NCBI GenBank assembly: GCA_943788815.1
Contig: CALSRS010000001.1
Span: 62,001 to 126,000 of the forward strand
Direction of reading: 5' to 3'
Length of the DNA stretch: 64,000 nt
Source: an uncultured Gammaproteobacteria bacterium
GTDB taxonomy: Bacteria; Pseudomonadota; Gammaproteobacteria; Eutrophobiales; Eutrophobiaceae
Shown here: in pieces, positions 1,677 through 60,469 of the stretch
How positions within the stretch are numbered: the stretch's first letter is position 1
Layout of the letters: the number at the start of each line of letters is the position of its first letter
The notes under the pieces: generated by a model
Told to the model about the DNA's origin: nothing
The model's database searches: none
What the model saw: the letters and a program-made list of their open reading frames with translations, nothing else
Translations under genes and position numbers: made by a program

Positions 1677-3038
1677 CTATATTTGTTTAATATTAGCAAG
1701 TATAGATGTGGTTTGTTTAAAACGGTCAATGACTGTATCGACAAATACTTTTAGAAATCGCAATTGTGTAGTTTCATCGGCACGATCCAAGGTTGACTTA
1801 TTTACACGTATGAGTGAAACATCTGTTTTTGCCGTGATAGTAGCTGTTCTCTCTGTGCTGGAAAGGAAGCCCATCTCTCCAAAACAATCACCTTCTTTTA
1901 ATGTATCTAAGGACTGACCATTTTTTTCTATACCAACCTGCCCAGCCAATATAATATAGAATGAATTGTCGCTTTCTCCTTCTTTGATTATCGTTTTGCC
2001 TGGCGGATAGCTATCCCAATTACTTGCCCTTACGAGGCTCCAAATTTCTGCATCATTGAATCCTTTGAAAAAGCCGAGACCTTGAAGTGATTCAAATTTT
2101 TCCTTTAGGTCATCTTGCGTTTCAATTTTTTCAAGGTCATCAAATATTAAAGCCAGATCCGCAGCTAAATCCAATCCTGATGAATATCGTTTAGAATTTT
2201 TCTTTTTCATCATTCTGGCAAGAATATATTCGAGCCCCTCTGGTATATCTGTTCGAAATTCAGAAAGAGACTGGGTGTTTTCATTGGTAATGTTGTTAGC
2301 TATTGAGGCAAGGCTATCGCCCTTGAAAGGGTGATGCCCTGTTAACATCTCATACATTACGGTACCAAGAGAAAAGATGTCAGTATTTGTCGATATATCC
2401 CATTCATTGATTTGTTCTGGGGACATATACAATGGCGACCCTAAAAAACCATCAAATTGAGTTGATGTTTGATCCGATCGGTTAATTCTGGCGATACTAA
2501 AATCAGAAACTTTTATATCACGGTCTTCGGTGAAGAGAAGATTGCTGGGTTTTATATCACGATGGATAATGCCTTGGCGATGAGCATAGTCTAGCGCTTT
2601 TGCACATTTATATATTATTCCAACTACTTCTCGTACGCTAAGCAAGGTGTTAGGTTTACTAAATAAATCCAGGGTTCGTGCGCCTGGAATAAATTCCATA
2701 ACTAAATAACAAATGTCACCATCAACACCAGCGTCAAATAGGCTTAAGATGCTGGGGTGAGAGAGTACACCGGCAGCATGGGCTTCATTAAAAAACAGTT
2801 TTCTGAATCATTTGCCGTCCTCATTTTCATTAATAAATTGAGGGTGGGCGACTTTGATTGCAACATGCTTGTTGGAAAAGGGATCATGAGCCTGGAATAC
2901 CGTTCCCATACTTCCTTTGCCCACTTGTTCAATGATTTCGTACTTACCTATAACCTCAGGTTGAGAAATGATAGTATGAAACGTACTATTGTAGTGGGTC
3001 TCTGTCTTGATATCATCCATATTTATACCGTTAATCAT
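1677..3038 (-). pseudogene. Ser/Thr protein kinase with C-terminal cyclic-nucleotide-binding domain, interrupted by an in-frame TGA
   Basis: Paralogue of the two intact kinases at 32652-35247. The first 76 codons hold the glycine-rich loop (GKGSMGTV) and the ATP-binding lysine (HVAIKVA). A TGA at 2810-2808 then stops translation, and the same frame continues without a shift through FFNEAH, HRDIKPSN, DFS in place of DFG, SPEQ and a CRP-like domain (GDCFGEMGF, ERTATITA) for 452 sense codons in total. At the stop position the two intact paralogues have Gln and Arg; CGA to TGA is a single transition. A downstream restart at an internal ATG (2699) would lack the nucleotide-binding half. It is a recent pseudogene, a sequencing error, or less likely read through. 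The minus-strand context (divergent from UDGb) is normal. Confidence 0.8.
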
Positions 3039-18307: not shown

Positions 18308-20531
18308 ATGAATGACGAACAAAATTTAAAACGAATTCTTATTTTCGATGATGATGCAGATCTAAGAAATCTTTTGCTCGTATATCTTGGCAAATTATTT
18401 ACTGGCGTTGAACTAGAAGAATATGACCCCCTAATACTTGGCGCGCCAGATGATTCGTTTGATTGGTCAAAATTTGATGTTTTGATTCTGGATTAATTTT
18501 TTATGTCTTCATGGTGTAACAGGATTGGATATACTGCATGCCAATCGCAAAAACCCTGATTTTCCTGCCACAATAATGTTGACAGGTGCTGGAAATGAAG
18601 AAGTTGCCGTGCGGGCATTAAAAGCAGGTGTGTATGATTATTTACGGAAACAATCACTGGATAAACAAGAATTAAAAGCGTCCATTCTTAAAGCATATTC
18701 CAATCATAATCAGGAAATAGAACGTAAAAAAGATGTCACCCAACAAGGCAAAGCATTTAATAAGTCCCTGTTTTATCAGCAACTTGAATTCCATAAGGAC
18801 ATACCTGGTTATAGAGACAGGGTACTGCTTTATCTTGAGCTTGATAACAATCAGGCAATTGTCGAACGAGAGGGAGTAATACTTCGCGACAATATCGTTA
18901 GGCATATTGCTAAACAAAGTTATGAAATTTTCAATTTTGGCGAATGCAACCCCAGTGTCACTCGTCTTGGCGATATCGCAATTGCATTACTTATAGATAT
19001 GCCTGACTCCAGAAAAACACTGGAATTCAATCTAAATGGCTTGCTAAATCATCTTAAAAAACATCCATTTAAATTTGATGGAAGGAGAATAGAATTTAAT
19101 ATCAATATTGGCGCAGTTGAACTGACTGGCGATGGTGAGTCAAAAGATATTGTTCTTGGCAGGGCAAAATCCTTAACACGCGAAGTGTCAGAAGCGATTG
19201 ATATATCTTATAAAATATATGATGCACACGCCCAAGAATTAATTTCGACACCTAGTGACGATACTCAAGGCAGACCTGATCTATCCGATGTGCCTGACAC
19301 GCCTGATGTGGCTAAAGCAGTTATTATACCAGAAGTGCCCGACAAATCTGATGAGGATATTGTAGCGCCAGAGCTTATAGTCAACACTCAAACATCGCCA
19401 TCGGCGCAAGCCCCGAAAATCTCCCAAACTGACTTGCAGGAAAAGACAATACCTGCAGATAAACCAGAATTGCAAACTAACGTGCCGTCATCACCACCTG
19501 CAAAACCTGTTGCTGCAAAGAAATTACAAACTAAACCATCTGTGACAAGCACGCATGCATCGCTTCAACCTGTAAAGCCCAGGAAAAGCCTTGATGAACT
19601 AAAAGCAGAACTTGAAAGGGCAAAAACAGATAGCATTACACAAAAAGCTGAAGATGCTACTATTGATGAAACGACTACTGCACCATCAAGCGCAACTGAA
19701 GTTACAAGCCTGGATATCTCCTCCCTGGATGATACAAGCAAAAATTTGTTTAAAGAATTTGAAGAAAAACGAATCATCCTGTCGTTCCAACCTGTAATTA
19801 CATTATTAAATGACGAAGTTGAAACTGATGATGAGATTCATTACGTTGGTTTACAACACGTCAATAATACAAATGAAAGGCCTGATGAATCATTACGTTC
19901 AAAAATTAATTCAAAAGAATTTCAAATGTATATCGATCGTTGGATATTACGAGAAATTATTGGCACATTATCAATTAAAAAGAATATAACTGACTCATTT
20001 ATTGTCAATATAAGTGATGCTTCCCTGGCTGATGCTAGTTTTTTCACCTGGTTTAGAACGATGTTGACAGGCTTAGATTCAAAAAATATCGGAAAATACA
20101 TATTGTTGGAAATTGATGCCAAAGATCTGGTGGTACTTGAAAAGCAGGCAAGTGCCCTCATTTCATATCTCAGGAAATCTCATCATTTCTCCTTCGTTCT
20201 GGGTACCGTGACAACAACAGAGGAGATTCTAAGCTATACAAATAAAATAAAATTTGACTTTCTTCGCTGCAATTCTATTCTTATCAAAGAGTTACAAGGT
20301 ATATCTGTAAGTGATGCAGAGGTTGCGGAAAACGATAATAATGCAACCCATTCCCAGCTTGATTTGCTAAAATCTAAAGGAACACGGTTAGTTGCTGATG
20401 ACATCATCGATTCGACAACTTTAACCGATGTGATCAGTCTCGGATCTGATTATGCCATGGGGGAATTCATAGGCGAACCGGTAACTCAGCTTGATGATGT
20501 TACTAATATAGAATCATTCGAAATCGTCTAA
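18308..20531 (+). pseudogene. FimX-like response regulator (REC, degenerate GGDEF, degenerate EAL), frameshifted
   Basis: Two frames together make one protein of about 740 residues. The first, ending at 18496, is the start of a receiver domain (ILIFDDDADLRN, phospho-acceptor Asp62 in DVLILD). Removing one A from TAAT at 18494-18497 restores Tyr and joins it in phase to LDILHANRKN, TIMLTGAG and AGVYDYLRK, the rest of the receiver. A degenerate GGDEF-like region (about 150-320), a Pro/Thr-rich linker (about 320-480) and a degenerate EAL domain (ILSFQPVITLL, GSDYAMGEFIGEP) follow; the EAL motif is YVGLQHV, so it is unlikely to be a phosphodiesterase. It resembles FimX-type c-di-GMP effectors. 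The frame break is a one-base insertion, real or an artefact; the downstream part could be expressed separately only from a weak TTG. Confidence 0.75.
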
Positions 20532-20557: not shown

Positions 20558-21172
20558 ATGGAATTGGAATCAAAAAAAATCGGAGTATATTTTCTCTGTT
20601 CTCCTGCTGTGATGCAAAATGCAGTTCAGCGACAAGGACAAACACTTAAAAGTGGTAACAAACCAAAACGATTAGGTGAGCTTTTACTTGAGGCAGGTAA
20701 TATTTCCCAGGACGAATTGGAAGTAGCTGTTCGAAAGCAACGTGTAGATAGATTGAGACTCAGCCCCGTATTTCACATGCTTTCAGATCCTGAACTGGCT
20801 GCAATCAGCAAGCGATTTGAAGAAGTATCAATAGAACCAAGCAAGCAATTTATTATTCAGGATGAGCCTGACCCCACCTTGTATATACTCGCCAGTGGTC
20901 GCGTAGAGGTATATCGAACCACATTGGATGGCCAACATATTCATATCGCTTTTGTGGAGCCGCCAGAACCGATTGGCGAAATGGGTTATTTCCAAGGCGG
21001 TATTAGAAATGCTTCAGTTAGAGCAGTTGGCAACGTTCAATTATTGCAAGCCAACTATTCTGATCTTACACATTATTTTGAATACGTACCTCGTGTAGCT
21101 CATGAGTTCATGAAAATAGTTGAGCACAGAAAATATGAAACAGAACAAATTTTTCAAAATAAACCTCAATAA
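20558..21172 (+). CDS. Cyclic-nucleotide-binding domain protein with a GspE-N/MshEN-like N-terminus
   Basis: A 204-residue protein. Residues about 37-60 (KRLGELLLEAGNISQDELEV) resemble the RLGxxLxxxG motif of GspE N-terminal/MshEN domains, some of which bind c-di-GMP. Residues about 70-190 form a CRP-like cyclic-nucleotide-binding domain (FIIQDEPDPTLYILASGRVEVY; the phosphate cassette reads IGEMGYF...IRNASVRA, keeping Glu and Arg). No DNA-binding helix-turn-helix follows. It starts 26 bases after the FimX-like gene and is probably co-transcribed. Ligand and target are unknown; only one MshEN-like half motif is seen, so c-di-GMP binding is a guess. Confidence 0.75.
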   Translation: MELESKKIGVYFLCSPAVMQNAVQRQGQTLKSGNKPKRLGELLLEAGNISQDELEVAVRKQRVDRLRLSPVFHMLSDPELAAISKRFEEVSIEPSKQFIIQDEPDPTLYILASGRVEVYRTTLDGQHIHIAFVEPPEPIGEMGYFQGGIRNASVRAVGNVQLLQANYSDLTHYFEYVPRVAHEFMKIVEHRKYETEQIFQNKPQ

Positions 21173-26783: not shown

Positions 26784-27407
26784 TTAAGTTGAACTTCGAG
26801 ACCTAAAATACCGATGAACATCATCAGGCATGTCAAGATCCCATTTTTGCTCTAGTTCAAATGATTTTAAATCATTTGAACTGATATGATTGCGTGTGTC
26901 ATCTAATACACTATCGCAGCCCCAATTTATATTCTCAAACACTTCGGGATGTGGCTCATGCATGCCAATCAGATAATAGCCTCCATCCTCGGCCGGTCCA
27001 ATCACGATATCGAATTCATTTTTCAACTTCTCATTTGCAATATTTATATCCTGAGAGTTCAGTTCGGGGCAGTCGCAGCCGACGATGATTGCATGTGAAT
27101 ATTGATTTAATATCTCTACAAATGCATTGTTCATTCTTTCTCCAAGATTACTGCCTCTTTGTAATACCAGGTCTATTTCATATTGCCGAGAACAAAATTG
27201 GAGATATGGGTTTTCTAGATCTGGAGTGCAATATATATAAATATGATCTATTTCAGACTGTTTGACGCTTTCAATCGTTTTTTTAAGAATGTCTTTATAG
27301 AGATGCAGTGCACCTTCTGTCCCCCACTCGGGAATCAATCGAGTTTTGACATGGCCTTCGACCGGGTTTTTGGTGAATATAATGATGGCACTATTTTCTT
27401 TATTCAT
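26784..27407 (-). CDS. TIGR04282-type glycosyltransferase (DUF2064)
   Basis: A 207-residue nucleotide-diphospho-sugar transferase-like protein. It begins IIIFTKNPVEGHVKTRLIP, the DUF2064/TIGR04282 signature, has GSNLGERMNNAF and the metal-binding VGCDCPEL, and ends with GPAEDGGYYLIGM and WDLDMPDDVHRY. The family is called rSAM/selenodomain-associated transferase 1 because it co-occurs with the radical SAM gene found two positions upstream. The start at 27407 gives an 8-base overlap with the preceding gene; an in-frame start 33 bases earlier is less likely. The sugar acceptor is unknown. Confidence 0.85.
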   Translation of the reverse strand: MNKENSAIIIFTKNPVEGHVKTRLIPEWGTEGALHLYKDILKKTIESVKQSEIDHIYIYCTPDLENPYLQFCSRQYEIDLVLQRGSNLGERMNNAFVEILNQYSHAIIVGCDCPELNSQDINIANEKLKNEFDIVIGPAEDGGYYLIGMHEPHPEVFENINWGCDSVLDDTRNHISSNDLKSFELEQKWDLDMPDDVHRYFRSRSST

Positions 27408-28068
27408 ATTGTTTTGCCAGTTCATCTGGCGATATGCCAAATGCGTATTTAAGTCGTAACATCCACATTAATAATATTGTCTTCAAAATGCCATTTTCTT
27501 CCCACCTGCGACTGGATGTCACCACATATCTTGGTATACACACAGGGGAACTAATTCTCTTCAACCTTTTGCTTAATGCAATGTCTTCCATCAAAGGAAT
27601 ATTAGGGTATCCACCTACCGTCTGAAATAGCTCTCTTGTCATAAATATTGCCTGATCACCTGTTGCAACTCCTGTAAATCTGGAGCGAGTATTGATCATC
27701 CATTCTATTAGCCTGAATATAGTCGATTCTCCTGACAGGCGTATATCAAACCGGCCCCAATAAGATTTTTTTCCTATCTTCATGAAAATGTCTTCTATAT
27801 TAGCTGGCAACGTGGTGTCTGAATGCAGAAAGATTAATATTGCTCCTGTTGCCAACCTTGCGCCAGTATTCATTTGCCTTGCCCTTCCAGGTTCACAAGT
27901 AATTAAACGGTCTACCTTTGATTTGGCAATAAAACACGTAGCATCTTTGCTGCCACCATCTACAATAATGATTTCATGGCCTGTTTTTCTTAAGTTTTGG
28001 AGTGAATCAAGAGTCTGAGATATGTTGTCTGCTTCATTTAATGCAGGAATGATAATAGATAACTTCAT
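27400..28068 (-). CDS. TIGR04283-type family 2 glycosyltransferase
   Basis: A 222-residue GT-A glycosyltransferase. The N-terminus is MKLSIIIPALNEADNI, followed by EIIIVDGGSKDATC, FLHSDTTLP as the metal-binding acidic motif, and GVATGDQAIFM. It fits the rSAM/selenodomain-associated transferase 2 family. It lies between the radical SAM gene (21-base gap) and the TIGR04282 gene (8-base overlap), which supports one operon acting on a common nucleoside- or sugar-linked product. Confidence 0.85.
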   Translation of the reverse strand: MKLSIIIPALNEADNISQTLDSLQNLRKTGHEIIIVDGGSKDATCFIAKSKVDRLITCEPGRARQMNTGARLATGAILIFLHSDTTLPANIEDIFMKIGKKSYWGRFDIRLSGESTIFRLIEWMINTRSRFTGVATGDQAIFMTRELFQTVGGYPNIPLMEDIALSKRLKRISSPVCIPRYVVTSSRRWEENGILKTILLMWMLRLKYAFGISPDELAKQYE

Positions 28069-28089
28069 TATTTATTCATAAATTCAATC

Positions 28090-29049
28090 TCAGTTTAATG
28101 CCCCACCACAACTGCTACCCTGCCCTGCTGTACATCCATAGCAATGATCAGCGACAGCAATCTGTGTGTTGTTTACATCTATTGTCATTAATTCGGATAT
28201 ATGCAACTTTTTATTATTGTTATTAATATTTAATCCCAGCATTTGATTGAAATCACAATCATAAACATGCCCCTCCCAATCCACACTGACCAGATTTTTA
28301 CACATAACATCATTTAGATTTTCATCGTTATGCGAATCTTTTAACAGTGTAATGTAATTCTCAAACTGATTTTTACTGACCAAAGTGCTTCCAAAGCGCT
28401 TGATGGGCATATTACATAGTGTATATAGCTTATTAAATTCTATACCGTAATCACTTTTTAGCTTTTGCTTGTAGGTGTTTTCAAGCTCATCCTGAGGAGG
28501 TGGTAAGTACGCTCCTAGAGGATTATAAACAAGGTTTAATTGTAAATCGGAATTTGATTTCCCATACCCCTGAGAATTTAATTTTAACAACCCATTAATG
28601 CTGTCATTAAACACACCTTTGCCTCGTTGTTCATCTACATTTTCTTCTGTATAACAGGGAAGCGAAGCAACTATTTCGACCTTATTCCTGGCCAGAAATT
28701 CAGCTAGATATTCATAAGTTTCAACTTCCAATATGGTCAAGTTGCATCGGTCAATTACATGTATTCCCATGTTGCTCGCCGTTTCAACAAGATAGTTGAA
28801 TTGAGGGTGCATTTCTGGCGCGCCACCTGTTATATCCAGGGTATGAAATTTATTTGATTTCAGGCACTCAATTACAGCATCAATCGTCTCTTCCGACATC
28901 TTTTCTTTTCGATAGGGGTTGGAATTAACGTGGCAATGCAAGCACGCGAGATTACATTTCAGACCAATATTTATTTGCAGAATTTCTAATTTATTTCTGC
29001 GTATACCAGGAAATGTTGTGGGCTTAAGTAGTGGTAATGTATCGTGCAT
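28090..29049 (-). CDS. arsS: ArsS-like radical SAM protein (rSAM/selenodomain family), Cys variant
   Basis: A 319-residue radical SAM enzyme. The cluster motif is CNLACLHCHVN (CxxxCxxC), with DITGGAPEMHPQF as the SAM-binding GGE-like motif. The C-terminus carries the cysteine-rich tail DHCYGCTAGQGSSCGGALN; in some relatives the cysteine after SS is selenocysteine, but here it is a normal TGC-type codon. ArsS in arsenosugar synthesis attaches a SAM-derived 5'-deoxyadenosyl group to dimethylarsenic. Assignment to arsenic is by homology only, since no arsM methyltransferase is in the window. It is the first gene of the three-gene minus-strand unit. Confidence 0.78.
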   Translation of the reverse strand: MHDTLPLLKPTTFPGIRRNKLEILQINIGLKCNLACLHCHVNSNPYRKEKMSEETIDAVIECLKSNKFHTLDITGGAPEMHPQFNYLVETASNMGIHVIDRCNLTILEVETYEYLAEFLARNKVEIVASLPCYTEENVDEQRGKGVFNDSINGLLKLNSQGYGKSNSDLQLNLVYNPLGAYLPPPQDELENTYKQKLKSDYGIEFNKLYTLCNMPIKRFGSTLVSKNQFENYITLLKDSHNDENLNDVMCKNLVSVDWEGHVYDCDFNQMLGLNINNNNKKLHISELMTIDVNNTQIAVADHCYGCTAGQGSSCGGALN

Positions 29050-32651: not shown

Positions 32652-33944
32652 TCATATTTCCTGAGAAATGATTTCTGTTGTTGCAGACAATCTGTGAATC
32701 AAAGTCCTTAAAAACACCTTCAAAAATCTAACCTGACAGTTTAACGATACCTGGGAGATGACAGTTGAATTGATCTTCACGAGCGATGTAGGTTCTTCTG
32801 CGCTGATGGAAGCTGACCTTTTTGTCTTGGCCAAATAACCCATCTCCCCAAAACAGTCACCCAATTCCAAGGTGCGTATGACTGTGTTATTTTTCTTCAC
32901 AACAACTTTCCCAGATACGATAATATAAAAACAATCATCAAGATCGCCTTCGACTATGATACTTTCAGCTTCACTGTAGTTTTTCCAGGTGCTAGCATTA
33001 AGAATTTCCCAAACTTCAGCCTCTGGGAATCCATTAAAAAAATCCAGTGCACGCATCATATTAAATTTTTCTTCAGTATCAATTTCAGCTTCTGGTTTTT
33101 CCAGGCTTTCAAATGCATCGTTCAGATCAGTTGCCAGGTCCAGGCCACTTTGGTACCGATTTTTCTTATCTTTGCAAATAGCTTTTTTAACGATTTTGTC
33201 GAGCACATCGGGGACATCAGATCTCAATGACCTCATTGGAGCGGCTTCTTCATTCATAATTTTATTAACTAGATCTGAAAATTTACCTGCCGGAAAGGGA
33301 TATTGTCCTGTTAATAATTCGTAGATCACAATGCCAAGTGAATATATGTCAGTCTGGCCATCGACCTTCTCTTCTCTCAATTGTTCAGGGGACATGTACT
33401 TTGGCGACCCCATCACACCTGCATCTGGTTGAGTGTCTGTTACATCAGGTTTATTAATATGAGCTATACTGAAATCACACATTTTCACGTCTATTTCATT
33501 GGTCACCAAAATGTTAGATGGTTTAATATCACGATGTGTTACCCCCTGCCGATGAGCGTAGTCAAGAGCTTTGGCGCATTTGAAGGCAATCTCAATTACC
33601 TTATCTATAGGTAATAAATTGGATTTTTTAGAAAATTTTTTCAGTGTTTCACCACCTTCAATATATTCCATAACAATGTAACAATTATCATCATCGACAC
33701 CAGCATCGTAGATATTGACAATATTTGGATGGGTTAACTTACCAGCAGTATGGGCTTCATTGAAAAACAACTTTTTGTATTGCTCACCAGACTCCTGGTC
33801 GTTAAGTGATTCAGCCAACGCCAGCTTGATAGCTACCTGCCGGTCTATGTATGGGTCATGCCCTAGATAAACGATGCCCATACTGCCGCGATCAATTTCT
33901 CGTAAAACCTCATATTTACCTAGGTTTGTTATTTCTTCTGACAT
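32652..33944 (-). CDS. Ser/Thr protein kinase with C-terminal cyclic-nucleotide-binding domain (second of tandem pair)
   Basis: A 430-residue soluble kinase. The N-terminal kinase domain (about 10-275) has Lys40 (QVAIKLA), a helix C Glu in FFNEAH, the catalytic loop HRDIKPSNIL (His137, Arg138, Asp139), DFS instead of DFG (157-159), and SPKYMSPEQL. The glycine loop reads DRGSMG, with Asp where the first Gly is expected. The C-terminal CRP-like domain (about 310-430) keeps the phosphate-binding pattern DCFGEMGY...KRSASISA. This is a PKG-like pairing in reverse domain order. It follows its paralogue by 7 bases and faces a TonB receptor. Confidence 0.9.
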   Translation of the reverse strand: MSEEITNLGKYEVLREIDRGSMGIVYLGHDPYIDRQVAIKLALAESLNDQESGEQYKKLFFNEAHTAGKLTHPNIVNIYDAGVDDDNCYIVMEYIEGGETLKKFSKKSNLLPIDKVIEIAFKCAKALDYAHRQGVTHRDIKPSNILVTNEIDVKMCDFSIAHINKPDVTDTQPDAGVMGSPKYMSPEQLREEKVDGQTDIYSLGIVIYELLTGQYPFPAGKFSDLVNKIMNEEAAPMRSLRSDVPDVLDKIVKKAICKDKKNRYQSGLDLATDLNDAFESLEKPEAEIDTEEKFNMMRALDFFNGFPEAEVWEILNASTWKNYSEAESIIVEGDLDDCFYIIVSGKVVVKKNNTVIRTLELGDCFGEMGYLAKTKRSASISAEEPTSLVKINSTVISQVSLNCQVRFLKVFLRTLIHRLSATTEIISQEI

Positions 33945-33951
33945 CGTTGTT

Positions 33952-35247
33952 TCATCCTGCTTTTGATATTGCCATTAAATTTGTGTTTGACAGTCTTCTG
34001 ACCAAGGTGCGTAGAAATACTTTGCTAAATCTAAGCTGACATTCAATAGAAACCTGGTCGATCAAGGTGGCATTAATTTTAATTAGTTGCATTTTCTCTC
34101 TGGCACGAATTGTCGCTGTTCTTTCAGTCTTTTCAAGATAACCCATTTCGCCAAAACAATCTCCAGATACTAATTCACCTAAAATATGCCCTTCTTTACT
34201 GACCTCTGCACTGCCAGTTATTATGATGTAAAACGAATCATCAATATCACCTTCTATAATCACGTCATCTCCGGTATCACAGGTCTGCCAAATACAAGCT
34301 TGTATGATTTCCCAGACTTCAGATTCTGGGAAATCCTGGAAAAAATCAACTTCCTGCAGCATGTTGAAGATCTCCTGCTCATTGATATTCTCTTCTGGCT
34401 TCTCCAGATAATCAAAGGCAAGGCTCAGGTCAGCCGCCATATTTAATCCCATCGTATAACGATTAGATTTTGATTTTTGTAAGGCATGATGCACAATTCT
34501 TTCAAGGATATTAGGCAAATCAGATCGATAAGTAGATAAAGGCGGTTGTTGCTCATTAATAATGATATGAATTAATCTAGAAAAACTATCGGCGATAAAA
34601 GGATGTTTGCCAGTCAAAAGCTCATACATGACTATACCCAATGAAAACAAGTCTGTTTGATTAGAAATAGAATCTTCCTGAACTTGCTCAGGTGACATAT
34701 ACCTAGGCGATCCTATAAAACCCATAGGCATGGTATTCGTCGTATCCGACCCGATTACGTGAGCTATACTAAAATCACCGATTTTAATATCATTATCACC
34801 AGTAAGAAGAATATTTGTTGGTTTGATATCCCTGTGCACCACACCTTGCCTATGGGCATAATCCAGCGCTTTTGCGCATTTAAAAATTATTTCAACCACC
34901 TGCTCTACAGGCAGAAGATTATCTTGTTTGCAATGAGTTTTTAAAGTGTTGCCTCCTTCAACAAGCTCCATAACGATATAACATTCATCTTGGTCGACAC
35001 CCGCATCTAATATTCCGATAATATTCGGGTGCTTTAACATGCCCGCTGTATGCGCTTCGTTAAAGAACATCTTGCGATATCTTTGCCCGGAATCCGAATC
35101 TTTCAAAGAATCTGATATGGCGACTTTCACTGCAACAAGCTTGTCTGCAAAAGGGTCATAGCCCTGGTACACTACCCCCATACTTCCGCGTCCAATTTGC
35201 TTCTGTATGTCATACTTTCCAAGTTTTTCAGGTATCGTATTGCTCAT
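33952..35247 (-). CDS. Ser/Thr protein kinase with C-terminal cyclic-nucleotide-binding domain (first of tandem pair)
   Basis: A 431-residue soluble protein. The kinase domain shows an intact glycine loop (GRGSMG, residues 19-24), Lys41, Glu64 in FFNEAH, HRDIKPTNIL (138-140), DFS at 158-160 and SPRYMSPEQV. It is a Hanks-type kinase by these motifs; whether DFS supports normal metal binding is uncertain, since its Asp is kept. A CNB domain follows (about 310-425; DVIIEGDIDDSFYIIITG, DCFGEMGY...ERTATIRA), so a cyclic nucleotide may control it. It is divergent from the phosphonate operon (156 bases between). Targets are unknown. Confidence 0.9.
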   Translation of the reverse strand: MSNTIPEKLGKYDIQKQIGRGSMGVVYQGYDPFADKLVAVKVAISDSLKDSDSGQRYRKMFFNEAHTAGMLKHPNIIGILDAGVDQDECYIVMELVEGGNTLKTHCKQDNLLPVEQVVEIIFKCAKALDYAHRQGVVHRDIKPTNILLTGDNDIKIGDFSIAHVIGSDTTNTMPMGFIGSPRYMSPEQVQEDSISNQTDLFSLGIVMYELLTGKHPFIADSFSRLIHIIINEQQPPLSTYRSDLPNILERIVHHALQKSKSNRYTMGLNMAADLSLAFDYLEKPEENINEQEIFNMLQEVDFFQDFPESEVWEIIQACIWQTCDTGDDVIIEGDIDDSFYIIITGSAEVSKEGHILGELVSGDCFGEMGYLEKTERTATIRAREKMQLIKINATLIDQVSIECQLRFSKVFLRTLVRRLSNTNLMAISKAG

Positions 35248-35403: not shown

Positions 35404-36150
35404 ATGAAAGTAATATTACTCGCCGCTGGTGTTGGCCAGCGACTAAAATCCAGCCATAGACTTCCCAAGTGCCTGCTTGAATTCAACGGGGAAACTTTAC
35501 TGTCCCGGCATATCCAAACTTTGGAACAATTTCCCGTGACAGAATTATTGATTGTCACTGGATTCATGGGCGAAATGGTAGAGAAAGAAATAAACGCACT
35601 AAGGAGTTCATTAAACATACACATGGTGTTTAATCCAAAGTATGAAAAAGGCAGTATTCTGAGTTTTCTGGCTGCATGTGGAAATATCAAAGCTGACAGC
35701 TCAGTCATATTAATGGACGCCGACGTTCTGTACTCCCCTGTCATGATCGATATATTATTTAAAAGTAATCATCTAAATACATTTCTATTGGATCAAAATT
35801 TTGAGCCTGGAGATGAACCTGTAAAACTTTGCGTCTATCAAAATGAAATAATAGAATTCAGGAAAAAGATACCGCAAAATATTAAATACGAATTAATTGG
35901 CGAGTCGGTTGGTTTTTTCAAGTTTTCAAATGTTGTATTTAAAAAACTGCATGAACAAGCCAATTTGTATTTTATATCAAACAACCACGAAGCAGCTTAC
36001 GAAGAAGCCATTAGAGATGTATTGCTGGACAACCCTGAATTATTTAATTACGAAGATATCACTGGGATTCCATGGATAGAAATAGACTTTCCAGAAGACA
36101 TAATAAATGCAGAAAAAACTTTAAACCAAATAAATAATAGTAATCAATGA
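35404..36150 (+). CDS. Nucleotidyltransferase, probable phosphonate (AEP) cytidylyltransferase
   Basis: A 248-residue NTP transferase of the phosphocholine-cytidylyltransferase type: [14 protein letters not shown] signature, [10 protein letters not shown], the metal-binding ILMDADVLY and the C-terminal [15 protein letters not shown]. It is the first gene of the phosphonate operon and overlaps pepM by four bases (ATGA). Such enzymes in phosphonate clusters form CMP-aminoethylphosphonate (PntC role), activating the phosphonate for transfer to lipid or glycan. The specificity is inferred from context; a separate nucleotidyltransferase domain is also fused to PepM. Confidence 0.8.
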
Positions 36151-37790
36151 ATAACATCACCTCTCGTCAGACAAAGCTTAAAGATATCCTCAACTCCAGC
36201 AATCTGGAATTCATACTTGAGGCACACAATGGCATTTCCGCCAGGTTAGTTGAACAGGCTGGGTTTAAAGGCATTTGGGCAAGTGGGCTTGCACTATCAG
36301 CTCAGTTTGGCGTGCGAGATAGTAATGAAGCAAGCTGGACTCAAATTGTAGACATGCTCGAATTTATGACTGATGTCACGTCCATTCCCATTTTACTGGA
36401 TGGTGATACTGGTTATGGTAATTTCAATAATATGCGACGTCTGGTTAGAAAACTTGAGCAGCGTAATATCGCTGGTGTTTGTATTGAAGACAAGCAGTTC
36501 CCCAAAACCAACAGCTTTCTGGATAGTGATCGTCAAGCATTAGCTGATGTTGATGAATTTTGCGGAAAAATTAAGGCCGGAAAAGATAGCCAGTCGATAG
36601 ATGATTTTTGCATCGTTGCAAGAGTAGAAGCTCTGATTGCCGGATGGGGAATGCGAGAAGCCATTACCCGCGCTGAGGCTTATTTCGATGCTGGAGCAGA
36701 TGCGATTTTAATTCATAGTAAAAACTCAGATCCTGGTGAAGTCCTTGAATTTTCCAGTATATGGGGAAATAGATGTCCACTTGTGATTGTTCCAACAAAA
36801 TATTACAGCACTCCCACGAGTGTATTTGCTGATGCTGATATAAGCCTGGTTATTTGGGCCAATCATATGATTAGGGCATCAATATACGCGATGGAATCAG
36901 TCAGTCAGGAAATCTATCAAAATGAATCAATAGTAGACGTGGAAGACAAAATTTCTCAAATTAATAAAATATTTTCACTACAAGGTGCTGATGAACTTGA
37001 TGAGGCTAATAAAAAATACCTAACACCAACATCAAAATATAGCGCCATTATTCTGGCAGCAAGTCGAGGCAGCCAATTTAAAGAACTCACAAAAGATAAG
37101 CCCAAAGCGATGCTGAATATCAATGGCGTTCCATTGCTACAAAGATTAACGACAGAATTCAAAGAACAGGGAGTGAATGATATAAACGTTGTTGCCGGTT
37201 ACAAGTCCGACATGATCAATATTAACGGCGTTAAAATAACTAAAAATCAAGAATATGATAGTAGCAATGAACTTGTATCACTTTTTTGCGCCGTCAACTC
37301 CTTTACTGACAACATGATTATCATTTATGGCGATTTACTTTTTAGAAGTTATATCTTAAACGATTTTATTGAAGCTAAAGGCAATATAACGATAGTTGTT
37401 GATTCGGCTAACATTGACAAAGACATTTCAGGCATGCCTGATTTTGTATATTGTGACAAAAATGATGACCGTTCCTTATTCAGGCAGGATGCAAACTTAA
37501 AGCACATATCGGAATTACGGAATGAATCGAATGAATTACCTTCAGGAAGATGGATAGGTATGTTAAAAGTCAACAAGATCGGCAGGCAAATATTAGACAA
37601 TGCTTTAACGGAATTATCTTCACAGGAAAACTTTAAAGACTTGACTATACCTGATCTGATAAACCATATTCTTTCCAATGGTCATGAGATAAAAGTACAT
37701 TACATTAATGGCCACTGGCTGGACGTCAACGATCTTGTTGATATAGAGCGCGCTGGTGACTTTATTAGCACATCGGCATCAACAACTTAA
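36147..37790 (+). CDS. pepM: Phosphoenolpyruvate phosphomutase fused to a C-terminal nucleotidyltransferase
   Basis: A 547-residue fusion. Residues about 10-290 are Pep[31 protein letters not shown], and the diagnostic [10 protein letters not shown], which distinguishes PEP mutase from isocitrate lyase relatives. It converts phosphoenolpyruvate to phosphonopyruvate, creating the C-P bond. Residues about 296-545 are a nucleotidyltransferase whose signature reads [10 protein letters not shown] instead of the usual LAAGxGxR, followed by [18 protein letters not shown], the acidic IIYGDLLF and [17 protein letters not shown]. Phosphonopyruvate decarboxylase follows after 16 bases. Confidence 0.93.
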
Positions 37791-37806
37791 AAGCGGCGGA
37801 TAATAT

Positions 37807-38961
37807 ATGATAGAAGCCGATAAATTTATAACAGCAGCAAAATCTCATTCTTTTTTTTCATACACAGGCGTGCCTTGCTCTTTCCTAACGCCATTTATAA
37901 ATAACGTCATCAATGATAATGAACTAGATTACATTTGTTCCGCCAATGAAGGTGATGCAATTGCAACTGCTGCAGGGATGGCAATTGCCGGAAAGAAAAC
38001 TATCGTCATGCTGCAGAACTCTGGACTAGGTAACGCAGTAAGCCCAATCACATCTTTACTTTACACATTCAAAATTCCCGTATTACTTATTATTACTCTG
38101 CGCGGTGATCCAGCGTCTAACGATGAACTACAACATGAATTAATGGGAAGGATAACTGAAGACCTTTTGAATCTAATGGAAATAGGCTGGGAATACTTCC
38201 CTGATGATTCAGAAAACATCATTCCAGCACTTGGCAGGGCTGTAAATCATATGGCCGATAAAAATCAATCATATGCTTTTATTATGAAAAAAGGCAGTGT
38301 TAAGTCAGACCAATTGAGCACACCCTTAGTCTCTAAAAATAAACTGGATAATGAACTATATATAGAATCACTGACTTCACTAGATAAACAGCCTTCAAGA
38401 CAAGAAGTTTTGTCTTTTTTGCAAAGCAAAACCAATCAGCAAAATAGCATATTGCTTGCTAGCACAGGTTATACTGGAAGAGAACTATACGCATTAGGCG
38501 ATAGAAAAAATCAGTTATACATGGTTGGTTCCATGGGCTGTGCAAGTTCTCTCGGTCTTGGACTTGCGATAGCAAAACCAGATAAGTCTGTTGTCGTGAT
38601 AGAAGGCGATGGTGCTGCAATTATGAGAATGGGGAATATAGCGACAGTAGGCCATTATGGTGATAAAAATTATTTTCATATCATTCTCGACAATGAACAA
38701 CATGATTCAACCGGTGGGCAATCTACTGTCAGCGCAGGCATGAATTTTGCTAAGATCGCACAGGCGTGTGGCTATCCCGTCACATACTTTGGGAATTCGA
38801 TAGAAATGGTGAACAGGCTGCTTATTGAGAATCAGAATATTGGTCCAAAACTTATCCATTTAAAAATTAAACCGGGAACGATGTCTAAATTACCTCGTCC
38901 CAGTGATCCACCTCATCAAGTAGTGAGACGACTCATGACACAACTATCTTCGTCGCTATAA
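37807..38961 (+). CDS. ppd: Phosphonopyruvate decarboxylase
   Basis: A 384-residue ThDP enzyme that makes phosphonoacetaldehyde from phosphonopyruvate and pulls the unfavourable PepM reaction forward. The N-terminal half has SYTGVPCSFLTPFINN and ICSANEGDAIATAAGMAIAG (catalytic Glu). The C-terminal half has the ThDP/Mg motif VVVIEGDGAAIMRMG...LDNEQHDSTGGQ. The length is normal for the family. phnW starts 3 bases after its stop. Confidence 0.94.
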   Translation: MIEADKFITAAKSHSFFSYTGVPCSFLTPFINNVINDNELDYICSANEGDAIATAAGMAIAGKKTIVMLQNSGLGNAVSPITSLLYTFKIPVLLIITLRGDPASNDELQHELMGRITEDLLNLMEIGWEYFPDDSENIIPALGRAVNHMADKNQSYAFIMKKGSVKSDQLSTPLVSKNKLDNELYIESLTSLDKQPSRQEVLSFLQSKTNQQNSILLASTGYTGRELYALGDRKNQLYMVGSMGCASSLGLGLAIAKPDKSVVVIEGDGAAIMRMGNIATVGHYGDKNYFHIILDNEQHDSTGGQSTVSAGMNFAKIAQACGYPVTYFGNSIEMVNRLLIENQNIGPKLIHLKIKPGTMSKLPRPSDPPHQVVRRLMTQLSSSL

Positions 38962-38964
38962 AAA

Positions 38965-40042
38965 ATGGAAATTTTACTTAATCCAGGACCTGTTAATATC
39001 AGTGACAGGGTGAGAAACGCCTTGCTCAAACCTGACATATGCCACAGAGAAGAAGATTTTTCCAGGCTGCAAAATTCAATTCGAGAAAAGTTGATTCAAA
39101 TTTACAACCTGAATTCGCACTGGGCTGCGGTTCTGCTCACCGGATCAGGCACTGCCGCAGTAGAGGCAATGCTTACCAGTCTGATTGGTTTTGAGGACCA
39201 TATTCTCATACTGGAAAATGGTATTTATGGGGAACGCATGACAAAAATTTGTGAGATATACGACATTCCTCACACAGTCCAGTCCCATGGATGGGGTGAA
39301 CCGATAAATATCGAATTATTAGCTGAAAACTTAAATAAAGGAATTACGAAAATTGCCTTGGTTCACCATGAAACCACAACAGGAAGATTGAATAACTTAG
39401 ATGAAATATCGGACATTGCGAAAAAAACATAATGTAGCTTTATTGCTGGATGCAGTGAGCAGTTTTGGAGCTGAAGAAATTCAATTTGATAACTGGAATA
39501 TTTCAGGATGTGCAGCAACTGCAAATAAATGTCTGCATGGTGTCCCGGGGATATCATTCTCGATTCTACGCCGAGATTGTATTAATGAACATCATCAAGC
39601 TAAATCTCTCTATTTGGATCTAGGAAATTATTTAAAGCAACAGGATATTGGAGGTACACCATTCACCCAGTCTGTTCAGGTGCTCTATGCCTTAGATGAG
39701 GCACTTAATGAACATGCAGATATGGGTGGATGGGAGTCGCGCCGAAATGATTATAGATTGAAAATGGAGCTATTAAACAAAAGTTTCAAGTCCATAAAAA
39801 TCAAACCGTACATAAATCCTTTAGATTCTTCCTGCGTTTTGTCGACATACTATCTGCCAGAAGGTAAAACCTATCACGAATTACATGACTACCTCAAACA
39901 TAATGGCTTTGTCATTTATTCTGGCCAGGGAGATCTTGCTGCAAAAGTATTCAGGATATCTTTAATGGGTGCAGTTACAAAAATAGATATAGAACGACTT
40001 ATAGATTTAATACGTAATTTTGCGAATGGACAACTGCCTTAG
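38965..40042 (+). pseudogene. phnW: 2-aminoethylphosphonate:pyruvate aminotransferase, with a +1 frameshift in an A7 run
   Basis: Two frames form one 358-residue PLP enzyme once one A is removed from the run of seven A at 39421-39427 (six A would read KKHNVALLLDAVSS). The N-terminal part has LLNPGPVNISDRV, HREEDFS and LLTGSGTAAVEAM; the C-terminal part has DAVSSFGAE, the PLP-binding lysine in TANKCLHGVPG, and DIGGTPFTQSV. The enzyme would make 2-aminoethylphosphonate by transamination, the last step of the cassette. The break may be a homopolymer sequencing error, a slippery or phase-variable tract, or a pseudogene. The stop overlaps the convergent dxs stop by four bases. Confidence 0.85.
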
Positions 40043-41934
40043 GCAGTTTTTACTGCGTCAGTTATTACGCTTAGATTAATATGAGATTCAATAAAGCTCA
40101 AAATACCCTCTTTTGTTAAACCGGCATCTTCAAGCATATCGTCTTGAGAGCCGTGAGGAATAAGTCTATCTGGCAATCCAAAATTATATACATTCACATC
40201 GATATCATTTTCGGCAATAAATTCGTTTATGGCGCTCCCAGCCCCACCTTGGATAACATTTTCTTCAACTGTGACAATAAATTCATGTTCAGCACAAAGA
40301 CTTTTTATCATGAGTTCATCTAAAGGTTTAACAAAGCGCATATTAACCACTGTTGCATCAATTATATCTCCAACTTCCTGACATGCATAAACCACAGATC
40401 CAAAAGCAAGAATTGCAATAGACTTACCTTCGCGTTTAATTTCTGCTTTTCCTACTGGTATGGCTTCCATCTGCTTCACCACATCAACACCCGTTCCCGT
40501 TCCTCTCGGATATCTAACGGCTGCAGGTTGATCTAAAATAAATCCGGTATAGAGCATTTGTCGACATTCGTTTTCGTCAGATGGAGCCATAATTACCATA
40601 TCTGGCAGGCATCTCAAAAATGTCAGATCAAAACTGCCATTATGCGTAGGCCCATCTGCGCCAACCAAACCAGCTCGGTCTATCGCAAATAGTACGGGGA
40701 GCTTTTGATTAACAACATCATTGATAAGTTGGTCGTAAGCGCGTTGAAGAAAAGTTGAATAGATAGCCACGACCGGTTTCAATCCATCACAGGCCATGCC
40801 TGCTGCCAGTGTGACACTATGTTGCTCTGCTATAGCAACGTCAAAATATCTGTCAGGAAATTCCTTTTCAAAACGAATCAAATCTGACCCCTCTCGCATG
40901 GCAGGAGTAATTGCAACCAGGCGTTGATCCAATCTGGCCATGTCACATATCCATTCCCCAAATATATTGCTATATGTTAGTTTGGATTTTTTATCAGACG
41001 GCATCATCCCCTGCTTTGGGTCAAATGGTTTTGAAACAGCGTGATATTTTACAGGGTCTGCCTCTGCTGGAGCATATCCCTTACCTTTTCTGGTAATGAC
41101 ATGAAGAAACTGAGGACCATCTAGTTCATGAATATTTTTCATGGTTTCTAATAAAGTAGGCATATGATGTCCATCGATAGGACCAATGTAGTTAAATCCC
41201 AACTCTTCAAATAATGTGCCAGGCACGACAAGCCCTTTGATATGCTCTTCAGCTCGCTTAGCGATCTCCCATACTGGTGGCATATTAGACAGGACTTTTT
41301 TCCCTTTCTCCCTGACATAGGTATAGAGTTTCCCCGATAGAATTTGAGCCACGCGATTCGACAGGGCACCTACATTAGGAGATATAGACATATTATTATC
41401 ATTCAATATAACCAGAAGGTTATTTTTCAAATCACCTGCATGGTTTAATGCTTCAAAGGCCATGCCAGCAGTAATGCCTCCATCGCCAATTATCGCAACG
41501 ACTTTTCTATCATTACCTAATCTGTCATTTGCTACAGCCATACCTAGAGCAGCACTGATAGATGTACTTGAATGCCCCACACCAAATGTATCGTATTCAC
41601 TTTCTTCTCGTTTTGGAAAAGGAGCCAGACCTCCACGTTTTCGGATACTATGAAGTTGGTTTTTCCTGCCCGTCAGCACTTTATGTACATAAGCCTGGTG
41701 CCCCACATCCCAGACTAGTCTATCCTCAGGTGTGTTGTATATATAATGTAATGCAATTGTGAGTTCAACCGCCCCCAAGCTTGCAGCAAAATGACCACTG
41801 TTTTTGCTAGCCCAATGCAACAAAAACTCACGACACTCCTTAGCCAAAGGCTCAAGATCAGATTCCTTAAGTCGTCGCAGATCGTTAGGGGACTCGATTT
41901 TATCTAGAATTGGTTTGAAAATTGTGTCTGTCAT
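40039..41934 (-). CDS. dxs: 1-deoxy-D-xylulose-5-phosphate synthase
   Basis: A 631-residue ThDP enzyme condensing pyruvate and glyceraldehyde 3-phosphate, the entry step of the MEP isoprenoid pathway. The features are the N-terminal [22 protein letters not shown], the ThDP/Mg motif [16 protein letters not shown]...NDNNMSIS, and the transketolase pyrimidine domain ([30 protein letters not shown]). Length and motifs are normal. Its neighbour across 185 bases is the divergent hopanoid gene hpnH, which needs isoprenoid-derived substrate. Confidence 0.97.
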
Positions 41935-56801: not shown

Positions 56802-57758
56802 TCAAAAATGTAAATATCCCAAACTATTTAAAAATTCATCGCTTAAATCATATTTGCTGTTCCAGACAATACCAGGCGTTTCTTTTATAGTCCCAATTCT
56901 GGTAATTTCACAATTAAATTCTTTTCTTATATTATCAATCTCCACTGAAAACTTATTATTTAATGTAAAACATAGCTCATAATCATCTCCACTGAGCATG
57001 CCTAGTGATAGTCTTAGGTCACTATCCACATCGTTTAATTTGTTATAAAAAGGAATTTGTTCGATTTCAATTTCAGCTCCAGCCATACTTGCAGATAGAA
57101 GATGTGAAAGATCTGATTTCAAACCATCAGAGATATCTATACAAGCCGTTGCCTTATTTCTAAGAGAAATGCCAATATCAAGACGCGGCTCAGGCCTATT
57201 CAAACGCTGTAGACACAATTTATCTATATTGTCATTGCCTTCGTTTAGCATATGCAAACCGTATGCCGCCATACCAAGTTTCCCGGTTACATAGATTGTA
57301 TCTCCCGGCATCGCACCGGAGCGCATAATTTGCTGCCCTTTAGGCACAACACCAAATATTTGCACTGTAATTGATAATGGCCCTCGAGACACATCACCGC
57401 CTATCAATTCAATTGAATACTTATTTGCAATAGAAAAAAATCCATTTGCAAAATCCTCTAACCATTTATCATCATTGTGTTCTAGAGTAATCGCCAAGGT
57501 GACATATAGTGGTTCAGCACCCATTGCTGCCATATCACTTATATTTACAGCAAGTGATTTATAAGCAATATCAAATGGCTTTGTTATTTTTGGAAAATGC
57601 ACTCCTGAAACAAGAGTATCTGTTGATACCGCCATAAATTTATCTGACGGCATTTCAACAATAGCGGCATCATCACCTATCCCCGCTATAATTGAAGTGT
57701 TGTGCTTATATTTTTTCTTAAAGTATTGACTAATTATGTCAAATTCAGACAAAGCCAT
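56802..57758 (-). CDS. thiL: Thiamine-monophosphate kinase
   Basis: A 318-residue ATP-dependent kinase making thiamine pyrophosphate. It has GIGDDAAIVEMPSDKFM, the metal-binding DMAAMGAEPLYVTLAI, GGDVSRGPLSITVQIFG and CIDISDGLKSDLSHLL, all ThiL hallmarks. It is the last intact gene of the riboflavin/nusB run, starting 11 bases after nusB. The usual pgpA is not next to it. Confidence 0.95.
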   Translation of the reverse strand: MALSEFDIISQYFKKKYKHNTSIIAGIGDDAAIVEMPSDKFMAVSTDTLVSGVHFPKITKPFDIAYKSLAVNISDMAAMGAEPLYVTLAITLEHNDDKWLEDFANGFFSIANKYSIELIGGDVSRGPLSITVQIFGVVPKGQQIMRSGAMPGDTIYVTGKLGMAAYGLHMLNEGNDNIDKLCLQRLNRPEPRLDIGISLRNKATACIDISDGLKSDLSHLLSASMAGAEIEIEQIPFYNKLNDVDSDLRLSLGMLSGDDYELCFTLNNKFSVEIDNIRKEFNCEITRIGTIKETPGIVWNSKYDLSDEFLNSLGYLHF

Positions 57759-57769
57759 ATTTACTTTTC

Positions 57770-58210
57770 TTATTTTTCCGCTGATTTACGTATTATTTTC
57801 GTCAGTTTATCCATAACGCCATTTATGTATTTATGCGATTCCTCTGCACCAAAGAGTTTTGCGAGTTCAATTGATTCATTAATAATGACTTTTTCAGGAA
57901 TGTCTTTTAAGAATAATAGCTCATAAGTTCCCAGGTGTAATATGGCACACTCAACTGGGTCAAGTTCAGATTCGGGTCGATCCAAGATTTGAATTAATAC
58001 TGATTTAATACTTTCTGATTCATTTATAATCCCGGCCAGTACGCTCTCAAAATATTCTAAATCGGCATTTTGAAGCTCATTTCTATCATTTTTGAACTCA
58101 TGTATTATCTCCGACACCGGTTGCTTATTTAATAACCATTGATAATAAGCTTGAATAATATTTCGACGCGACCTGATCCTTGCCTTTTTAGAATACAAAA
58201 CCTCTTTCAT
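57770..58210 (-). CDS. nusB: Transcription antitermination factor NusB
   Basis: A 146-residue all-helical RNA-binding protein that works with NusE in rRNA antitermination. Family features: KARIRSRRNIIQAYYQWLLN, ECAILHLGTYELLFLKDIPEKVIINESIELAKLFGAEESHKYINGVMD. The ATG at 58210 lies one base after the ribH stop; an in-frame TTG at 58225 would extend into ribH. Confidence 0.96.
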   Translation of the reverse strand: MKEVLYSKKARIRSRRNIIQAYYQWLLNKQPVSEIIHEFKNDRNELQNADLEYFESVLAGIINESESIKSVLIQILDRPESELDPVECAILHLGTYELLFLKDIPEKVIINESIELAKLFGAEESHKYINGVMDKLTKIIRKSAEK

Positions 58211-58211
58211 C

Positions 58212-58670
58212 CTATAATGAATCAATTGACCGCATCACATTAGCCATTTTAATAGCTGCTAACGCAGATTCTGAACCTTTGTTACTTTCTTGTTCTCCGG
58301 ATCGATCTTGTGCTTGTTGTACAGTATCTACAGTCAAAACACCGAATATTACTGGAACTAAAGTTGCCGCACTGATTCTGGCAATTTCCGTACTTACACT
58401 ATTCGAAATAAACTCAAAATGTGGCGTTTCTCCTTTTATAATTGCACCCAGAGTAATTATTGCATCTGGTTTTTTTGACATAATAAGTTTATTTACTACC
58501 ACTGGTATTTCAAATGCACCTGGCACTTCAATGACGGGAAGTTCTTTTCTATCCAACCCCTGTTTCTGGAGTGTTGCCAGGCAACCACTAAGTAAGCGTT
58601 CTACAATGTATGGATTATACTGGCTAACAACTATTACCAGCTTAGGTTTAAACTCTTGAGTATCATTCAT
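58212..58670 (-). CDS. ribH: 6,7-dimethyl-8-ribityllumazine synthase
   Basis: A 152-residue lumazine synthase, the penultimate riboflavin step. Substrate-binding motifs: VVSQYNPYI, PGAFEIPVV, GAIIKGETPHFEFI and PVIFGVLTVDTVQQAQDR. It lies between ribB(A) and nusB, the standard gammaproteobacterial order. Confidence 0.96.
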   Translation of the reverse strand: MNDTQEFKPKLVIVVSQYNPYIVERLLSGCLATLQKQGLDRKELPVIEVPGAFEIPVVVNKLIMSKKPDAIITLGAIIKGETPHFEFISNSVSTEIARISAATLVPVIFGVLTVDTVQQAQDRSGEQESNKGSESALAAIKMANVMRSIDSL

Positions 58671-58700
58671 TTTAAATATTCATTATTTGATGTAATTAAA

Positions 58701-59804: not shown

Positions 59805-59867
59805 AAATATCAATAAGTTAAGGATGTTGAGTTTATTTTATTATATCCTTAATATGGTGTTTTGTAT

Positions 59868-60464: not shown

Positions 60465-60469
60465 ATGAT

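Follow-up and report, generated by a model that had tools for sequence, protein, structure and literature searches.

Adjacent Hanks-type kinase genes in a gammaproteobacterium represent a widespread family with a C-terminal CRP-like domain and probable cyclic-nucleotide control

A 64,000-nucleotide stretch of the genome of an uncultured gammaproteobacterium (GenBank assembly GCA_943788815.1, contig CALSRS010000001.1, positions 62,001 to 126,000; hereafter the window) carries two adjacent genes whose products combine a Ser/Thr kinase domain with a cyclic-nucleotide-binding (CNB) domain located behind it. Based on conserved residues and predicted folds, we propose that these proteins are soluble PknB-type kinases controlled by a C-terminal CRP-like sensor, with cyclic AMP (cAMP) as the favored ligand, a reading to which we assign a probability of about 0.55. 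The kinase-CNB pair itself is real and conserved, and it is likely functional.

Both genes lie on the minus strand, with gene B (32652..33944; protein P0001, 430 residues) starting 7 bp past the end of gene A (33952..35247; protein P0002, 431 residues), and their products share 57% identity across 415 residues (BLASTP). The kinase domain spans residues 12–266 of A (34450..35214, minus strand; PF00069, 9.6e-54) and residues 11–264 of B (33153..33914, minus strand; PF00069, 7.4e-52). Behind it, within residues 321–398 of each protein, Pfam places a cNMP_binding domain (PF00027) with E-values of 6.7e-15 for P0001 and 4.3e-15 for P0002, the two intact proteins scoring 55.3 and 55.9 bits against a cut-off of 27.5. 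These domain positions establish that the kinase-then-CNB order is real, so that both the order and the close spacing reported in the initial annotation hold. No helix-turn-helix (HTH) or further accessory domain reached the Pfam cut-off behind the CNB domain in either protein, and the chain ends after the C-helix.

The CNB part of A (residues 285–431; 33955..34395, minus strand) is predicted to consist of helices, a beta barrel, a phosphate-binding cassette, and a 30-residue C-helix. When it was predicted alone from a 27-row alignment (A3), a check proposed in the initial annotation, the model reached a mean predicted local distance difference test score (pLDDT) of 92.9. Its best structural alignment (VIA-align) was to an uncharacterized bacterial CNB domain (3gyd, Z 18.2), followed by cAMP-bound GlxR (3r6s, Z 17.9) and the domain of PycTIR bound to cyclic UMP (cUMP; 8jsk, Z 17.6), then by CRPs, and then by PKG and PKA domains, and several of the CNB matches had been solved with cAMP or cyclic GMP (cGMP). 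Z-scores ran from 18.2 to 15.7 across the best 50 rows, and rows less than 1 Z apart were considered tied. By sequence search among solved chains, the same part matched Plasmodium PKG best.

Residues expected to anchor a ligand are retained within this predicted fold. The phosphate-binding cassette occupies residues 362–382 of both proteins (34102..34164 in A and 32799..32861 in B, both minus strand) and reads GDCFGEMGYLxKTxR(S/T)A, including the glutamate and arginine (E367 and R376 in both) that had been described as kept. The invariant columns of the 27-row CNB alignment are F22, G61, G82, E83, R92, and R134, and three of these six belong to the cassette, with G82, E83, and R92 corresponding to G366, E367, and R376 of P0002. 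Conservation was evaluated in three collections: a “near set” of 60 distinct proteins from the fetched loci that cover more than 330 residues of P0002, including the three copies of the window; a “named set” of 27 kinase-CNB proteins, one of them a fragment; and a “class-wide set” of 60 proteins, one per genome, drawn from 73 genomes with a match to both domains once 9 already sampled genomes and G209, G218, G225, and G263 had been set aside (G and L handles denote genomes and loci, respectively). Across the 59 readable rows of the near set, the cassette glutamate is found in 57 (Asp in 2) and the arginine in 58, the sole change being a lysine in L060, while L093 is masked at this position. 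Both residues are present in 27/27 named proteins, and in the class-wide set the glutamate is found in 60/60 and the arginine in 51/60. The motif RLxxT(T/N) of the C-helix aligns opposite RLxxTS of the genome’s own CRP, placing T422-N423 of A (33979..33984, minus strand) at positions that we take to be the adenine contacts in CRP. Within the near set, the first position of this pair is Thr in 54/60 proteins, and the second is Thr or Asn in 59/60.

The genome (3.23 Mb, 3 contigs, 99% complete) encodes candidate partners for such a sensor, namely a CRP equivalog (317.4 bits for a cut-off of 266), PP2C phosphatases, and five class III cyclase domains, thus answering a search for cyclases suggested at the outset. 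The three cyclases scanned for partner domains carry HAMP, CHASE2, or FHA, and at least two cyclases (L033 and L034) display by eye a Lys and an Asp that we presume to select ATP. Among 57 relatives, from which G008 and G034 were removed because of partial kinase matches, a class III cyclase was detected in 31/31 genomes with the family vs 14/24 without it. Across the class, the corresponding figures were 65/73 vs 166/296 for class III, and 67/73 vs 183/296 for class III or class I. The kept cassette residues, the predicted CNB fold, and the presence of CRP and class III cyclases make ligand control, originally advanced as a possibility, a plausible one. Separately, the same genome encodes a class III cyclase-FHA fusion side by side with a PP2C phosphatase and with a kinase of the Hanks type (L035, L245, and L006; G000:C2:72543-75754), which provides a second hint of wiring between cyclic nucleotides and Ser/Thr phosphorylation. 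We also observed in relatives long kinases (frames of ~840–905 residues) adjoining long class III cyclases (G013:C14:164040-167440, G006:C104, G033:C142, and G011:C40), with 42–44% identity to P0002 over the kinase part.

Several observations weigh against cAMP control as proposed here, and some of them bear on two alternatives. Neither ancestry nor genome size was corrected for in the cyclase association, cyclases are frequent regardless of the family, being present in 62% of the 296 other genomes, and the 73 family-bearing genomes are a lower bound, such that some of the 296 others may carry the family. In addition, the full-length AlphaFold2 model of P0002 (pLDDT 87.0) leaves the arrangement of its domains uncertain, with a predicted template modeling score (pTM) of 0.66. 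Neither a class III nor a class I cyclase was detected in six of the 73 genomes carrying the family, and nine of the 60 class-wide proteins lack the cassette arginine, although all four catalytic residues checked are kept. Along with the long C-helix, these cases would fit a CNB domain acting as a ligand-free structural or dimerization module, attached to a kinase that is constitutive or controlled by protein partners. We consider this unlikely, since the cassette Glu and Arg rank with the best-conserved positions of the CNB domain in both the near set and the 27-row alignment, and since the nine Arg-less proteins also lack the C-helix Thr (0/9, vs 28/50 of the class-wide proteins with Arg; Fisher p 0.002, uncorrected for ancestry). 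This joint absence fits minority lineages that have ceased to bind a ligand, although the near set includes exceptions to the link, with L060 having Thr without Arg and five rows having Arg without Thr. The proteins of the six cyclase-less genomes are of the DFG type and miss the full CRP-like pair, a pattern noticed post hoc, and two of them have Thr then Arg at the C-helix positions. Among Arg-less proteins, those of L233, L234, L235, L237, L239, L240, and L241 are of the DFG type, have the cassette arginine replaced by Ser or Glu while retaining the catalytic residues, and may represent natural test cases for ligand-free versions.

The second alternative retains the same control of the kinase and changes the ligand, which would be cGMP, cUMP, cyclic CMP (cCMP), or another small molecule. 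Further points also weigh against cAMP. The placement of E367 and R376 on the ribose and phosphate is presumed from their contact roles in CRP, and the cUMP-bound 8jsk is tied with the cAMP-bound structures. The first C-helix Thr is found in only 28/59 class-wide proteins (the stretches end near the pair, and one ends before it) and in 5/27 named ones; because so few named proteins have it, the ligand may vary across the family. The residue following the cassette arginine is Thr in 40/60 and Ser in 15/60 near-set proteins, Thr being the PKG consensus at this cassette position in the available part of PMC2246266. PKG structures, like the cUMP-bound one, also score near those bound to cAMP, and the C-helix contact residues vary over the wider family. 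We nevertheless regard a different ligand as unlikely for the window proteins, considering that the genome has a CRP equivalog, that the cyclases of L033 and L034 show residues presumed to select ATP (the cyclase searches covered classes III and I), and that the C-helix pair resembles that of CRP. Hence, cAMP remains our favored ligand.

The kinase domain is of the Hanks type, and all five catalytic residues (VAIK Lys, alpha-C Glu, HRD Asp, catalytic Asn, and DFx Asp) are present in P0001 and P0002. Its nearest solved relatives by sequence are Mycobacterium tuberculosis PknB (8.3e-44) and then StkP, with PKG chains at 3.2e-39, and the best Foldseek match is likewise PknB (5u94, TM-score 0.94 by target length), again with StkP next. 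Unlike PknB/StkP-type kinases, the window pair has a C-terminal CNB sensor, a DFS motif, and scores of 290.1 and 279 bits with the NCBIfam PASTA-kinase model NF033483, below its cut-off of 450. Matches to PD-T4-6 and MAD6 of PADLOC fell on the kinase part, ending before approximately residue 335 among the matches listed, and no defense gene was identified among the window neighbors scanned with Pfam.

The DFS motif (residues 158–160 of A, 34768..34776; residues 157–159 of B, 33468..33476; both minus strand) results from a Ser in place of the Gly of DFG, a residue that is not strictly required of Hanks-type kinases, and it is shared by all three kinase-CNB copies of the window. Within the near set, 58/60 proteins have DFS and 2/60 DFG, a level of conservation that excludes a chance origin. 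In the kinase tree, many DFS proteins sit in mostly-DFS branches (21/24 and 4/5) with some DFG within, indicating that DFS was inherited, with reversals or repeated origin. By contrast, DFG predominates more broadly, in 22/27 named proteins (DFS in 3, DLG in 2) and 38/60 class-wide proteins (DFS in 22), which rules out DFS as a mark of the kinase-CNB architecture. The initial annotation had viewed DFS as a family trait, and this is correct with regard to its inheritance around the window copies but not as a general property of the family. For the 63 CNB-less kinases from the named loci, the same site reads DFG in 56, DLG in 1, and DFS in 1, with 5 unread, and the lone DFS belongs to the interrupted B copy of L102.

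An altered DFG glycine could also indicate lost catalysis, i.e. a pseudokinase. This appears very improbable, and we rejected it, because 60/60 class-wide proteins retain the catalytic Lys, Glu, Asp, and Asn, and every near-set row that covers these residues and the DFx Asp retains them too, the sole near-set row without the catalytic Lys being an open piece of the interrupted third copy described below. Moreover, TbDYRK of Trypanosoma brucei is an active kinase with DFS, in which an S-to-A change retains ~70% of the activity and an S-to-G change lowers it, as described in the accessible text of PMC7136023, whose authors interpret these results as a pre-activated state. TbDYRK is unlike the proteins studied here in being a eukaryotic DYRK with different control regions, and extending the pre-activated state to kinase-CNB proteins is an analogy from which we infer only what DFS may do. 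Overall, the window pair most likely consists of active kinases. Their activation loops contain a TxT motif in both intact copies, and T-x-T occurs in 41/60 near-set proteins (16 have a Thr outside such a motif, 2 have none, and 1 is unread), 17/60 class-wide proteins (27, 12, and 4, respectively), and 2/27 named proteins (19, 6, and 0), indicating that TxT is not general.

Combining these elements, we propose a mechanism in which class III cyclases would make cAMP, the most likely ligand, which would enter the CNB pocket, with E367 and R376 holding the ribose and phosphate and T422-N423 of the long C-helix holding the adenine. Binding would rearrange the C-helix, which probably pairs two subunits as in CRP, and the resulting repositioning of the two kinase domains would enable trans-autophosphorylation of the activation loop at TxT and raise kinase activity, whereas ligand release or a PP2C phosphatase would lower it. 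The Ser of DFS probably favors a pre-set DFG-in state, which would leave control to the sensor and not to a DFG flip. The sign of regulation is not fixed by these sequences, and the unliganded CNB domain might instead permit activity, with cAMP switching the kinase off. We deem this inverted scheme quite unlikely by analogy with PKA, PKG, and CRP, all of which are activated by cyclic nucleotide binding, and thus retain activation by cAMP as the preferred direction.

The closest parallels to this arrangement combine some of its features. Eukaryotic PKG carries CNB domains in tandem at its N terminus and a kinase of the AGC group at its C terminus. The window proteins likewise have a kinase and a CNB domain on one chain, but their kinase comes first and is PknB-type instead of AGC, and their CNB domain is single. 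The description of the pair as PKG-like is therefore appropriate by analogy only; in their working, the kinase-CNB proteins may resemble a PKG turned round, yet they are not PKGs. Similarly, the sensor shares with CRP, Vfr, and GlxR the CNB fold with a long C-helix, the cassette Glu and Arg, and the C-helix Thr pair, but it comes without a DNA-binding domain (no HTH match), and its output is a kinase.

Members of this family were found across a broad range of genomes. In the kinase tree, all 93 CNB kinases, including the window copies, formed one clade together with 2 incomplete copies (FastTree support 0.999), as did 44 CNB kinases and the same two incomplete copies in an earlier, smaller tree (support 0.995). 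This monophyly is that of the sampled set, as the kinase-only controls came from loci picked by likeness to the query. The same kinase-then-CNB pair, for which the initial annotation had proposed a search, was matched in an even draw of 369 genomes from the class by at least 73, which belong to 35 families and include the window’s own genome, vs 5/398 genomes in a phylum-wide draw evaluated at a stricter threshold (E ≤ 1e-108), and prevalence is thus strongly dependent on sampling. A scan of genome contigs, limited to the best 80 loci, so that fusions with unrelated kinase domains may have escaped, identified as nearest named relatives mostly proteobacterial metagenome-assembled genomes (MAGs), many from Gammaproteobacteria. 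Named carriers include records from Woeseiaceae, Chromatiales, Rhodocyclaceae, Azonexus, Acidovorax, Gallionellaceae, and Sideroxydans, the cultivable Azonexus hydrophilus having a DFG-type protein, and a few carrier MAGs are labeled Deltaproteobacteria, Nitrospirae, Mycobacteriaceae, or Planktophila, a placement given by the record label alone.

Links between CNB domains and bacterial kinases have been recorded before. The “Other_bacterial” row of a table in Kannan et al. 2007 names kinases as one of the domain types to which CNB domains are joined in bacteria (PMC2246266), and in the available part of that account kinase class, domain order, DFS, phylogeny, and function are not covered. Some Planctomycetota Ser/Thr kinases are implied to carry a CNB domain (PMC11032199), the available part of that report stating neither the domain order nor a relation to the clade described here. 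Given these kinases and the query-like controls of our tree, independent kinase-CNB fusions may exist outside of our sample. The term “cyclic nucleotide” is absent from the main text of PMC1262709 and PMC1821047, and searches of an open-licence library directed at bacterial kinase-CNB proteins yielded no functional study of one. Cyclic-nucleotide-controlled kinases had been presented in the initial annotation as not a standard bacterial scheme; with regard to the architecture, this does not hold, as it is widespread and its CNB-kinase link already appears in the part of PMC2246266 available, while our literature searches, which yielded no functional study, agree with it.

As the initial annotation had noted, the window also includes a third, broken kinase-CNB paralogue ~30 kb from the pair (1677..3038, minus strand), interrupted by one in-frame TGA at 2808–2810, with open pieces listed at 1677–2699 and 2808–3038. 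Its orthologues are uninterrupted in three congeners (G001, G002, and G003). This paralogue adjoins uvrC, pgsA, and a uracil-DNA glycosylase-like gene (named by eye), neighbors that recur in relatives.

Divergent from gene A is a phosphonate gene set (35404..40042, plus strand), in which a nucleoside triphosphate (NTP) transferase, a phosphoenolpyruvate (PEP) mutase-NTP transferase, and a phosphonopyruvate decarboxylase were identified with Pfam and NCBIfam, along with a split 2-aminoethylphosphonate aminotransferase. The latter (frames 38965–39432 and 39401–40042) had no Pfam match alone, was named from a cluster-mate (L069:14415-15503), and is in one piece in relatives such as this one. Seven other fetched loci have a PEP mutase and/or NTP transferase near their kinase-CNB genes, and the decarboxylase was detected in 7. 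The idea that kinase A is dedicated to phosphonate regulation is not supported, as no such neighbors were found on the stretches examined of L068, L078, and L079. A two-mismatch CRP site between gene A and the phosphonate set was dismissed as meaningless, since matches to TGTGA-N6-TCACA with at most 2 mismatches number 35 in the window vs 35.3 expected. In relatives, the same neighborhood contains glucose-6-phosphate isomerase (in 9 fetched loci) and a CBS-domain protein (in 7), typically between A and B; in L067, L069, L070, L077, and L081, the isomerase separates the two kinase-CNB genes, mostly with the CBS-domain protein. A rib/nusB/thiL run (by eye) comes before DFG-type kinase-CNB genes in L072, L106, and L107, and dxs comes after them in L072 and L107, while in the window dxs (40039–41934) and the thiL-to-ribD run (56802–61579) are ~15 kb apart. 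Because neighbors differ between branches, the neighborhood does not identify the substrate. Elsewhere in the window, a 204-residue protein whose only match is a CNB domain (20558–21172) is encoded after an EAL-domain gene (18525–20531), and a radical SAM/DUF3641 gene (28090–29049) lies beside two smaller genes that look glycosyltransferase-like by eye (region 26784–29049), a group that we presume may be involved in arsenosugar synthesis.

In bacteria, cAMP is known mainly to act via CRP-type transcription factors. If the kinases described here are switched by cAMP, it would act in bacteria through protein phosphorylation too, and the logic of PKA and PKG would have evolved separately with the opposite domain order. 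A bolder scenario, which we hold as tentative and on balance doubtful, is that a cAMP-dependent kinase was invented once, anciently, in proteobacteria and independently of PKA and PKG. Under this scenario, a monophyletic family of soluble PknB-type kinases, every member having a C-terminal CRP-like cAMP switch, would connect cAMP to phosphorylation in parallel with CRP, and large branches would have fixed DFS as a pre-set active state that leaves the sensor alone to gate activity. The natural split between DFS and DFG within one clade provides a test of the role of the glycine, and the commonness of the family combined with the conservation of its anchor residues makes cAMP control of bacterial kinases directly testable with a protein of ~430 residues. 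Overall, kinase-CNB proteins form a widespread family that is probably controlled by cyclic nucleotides, a scheme usually seen as eukaryotic.

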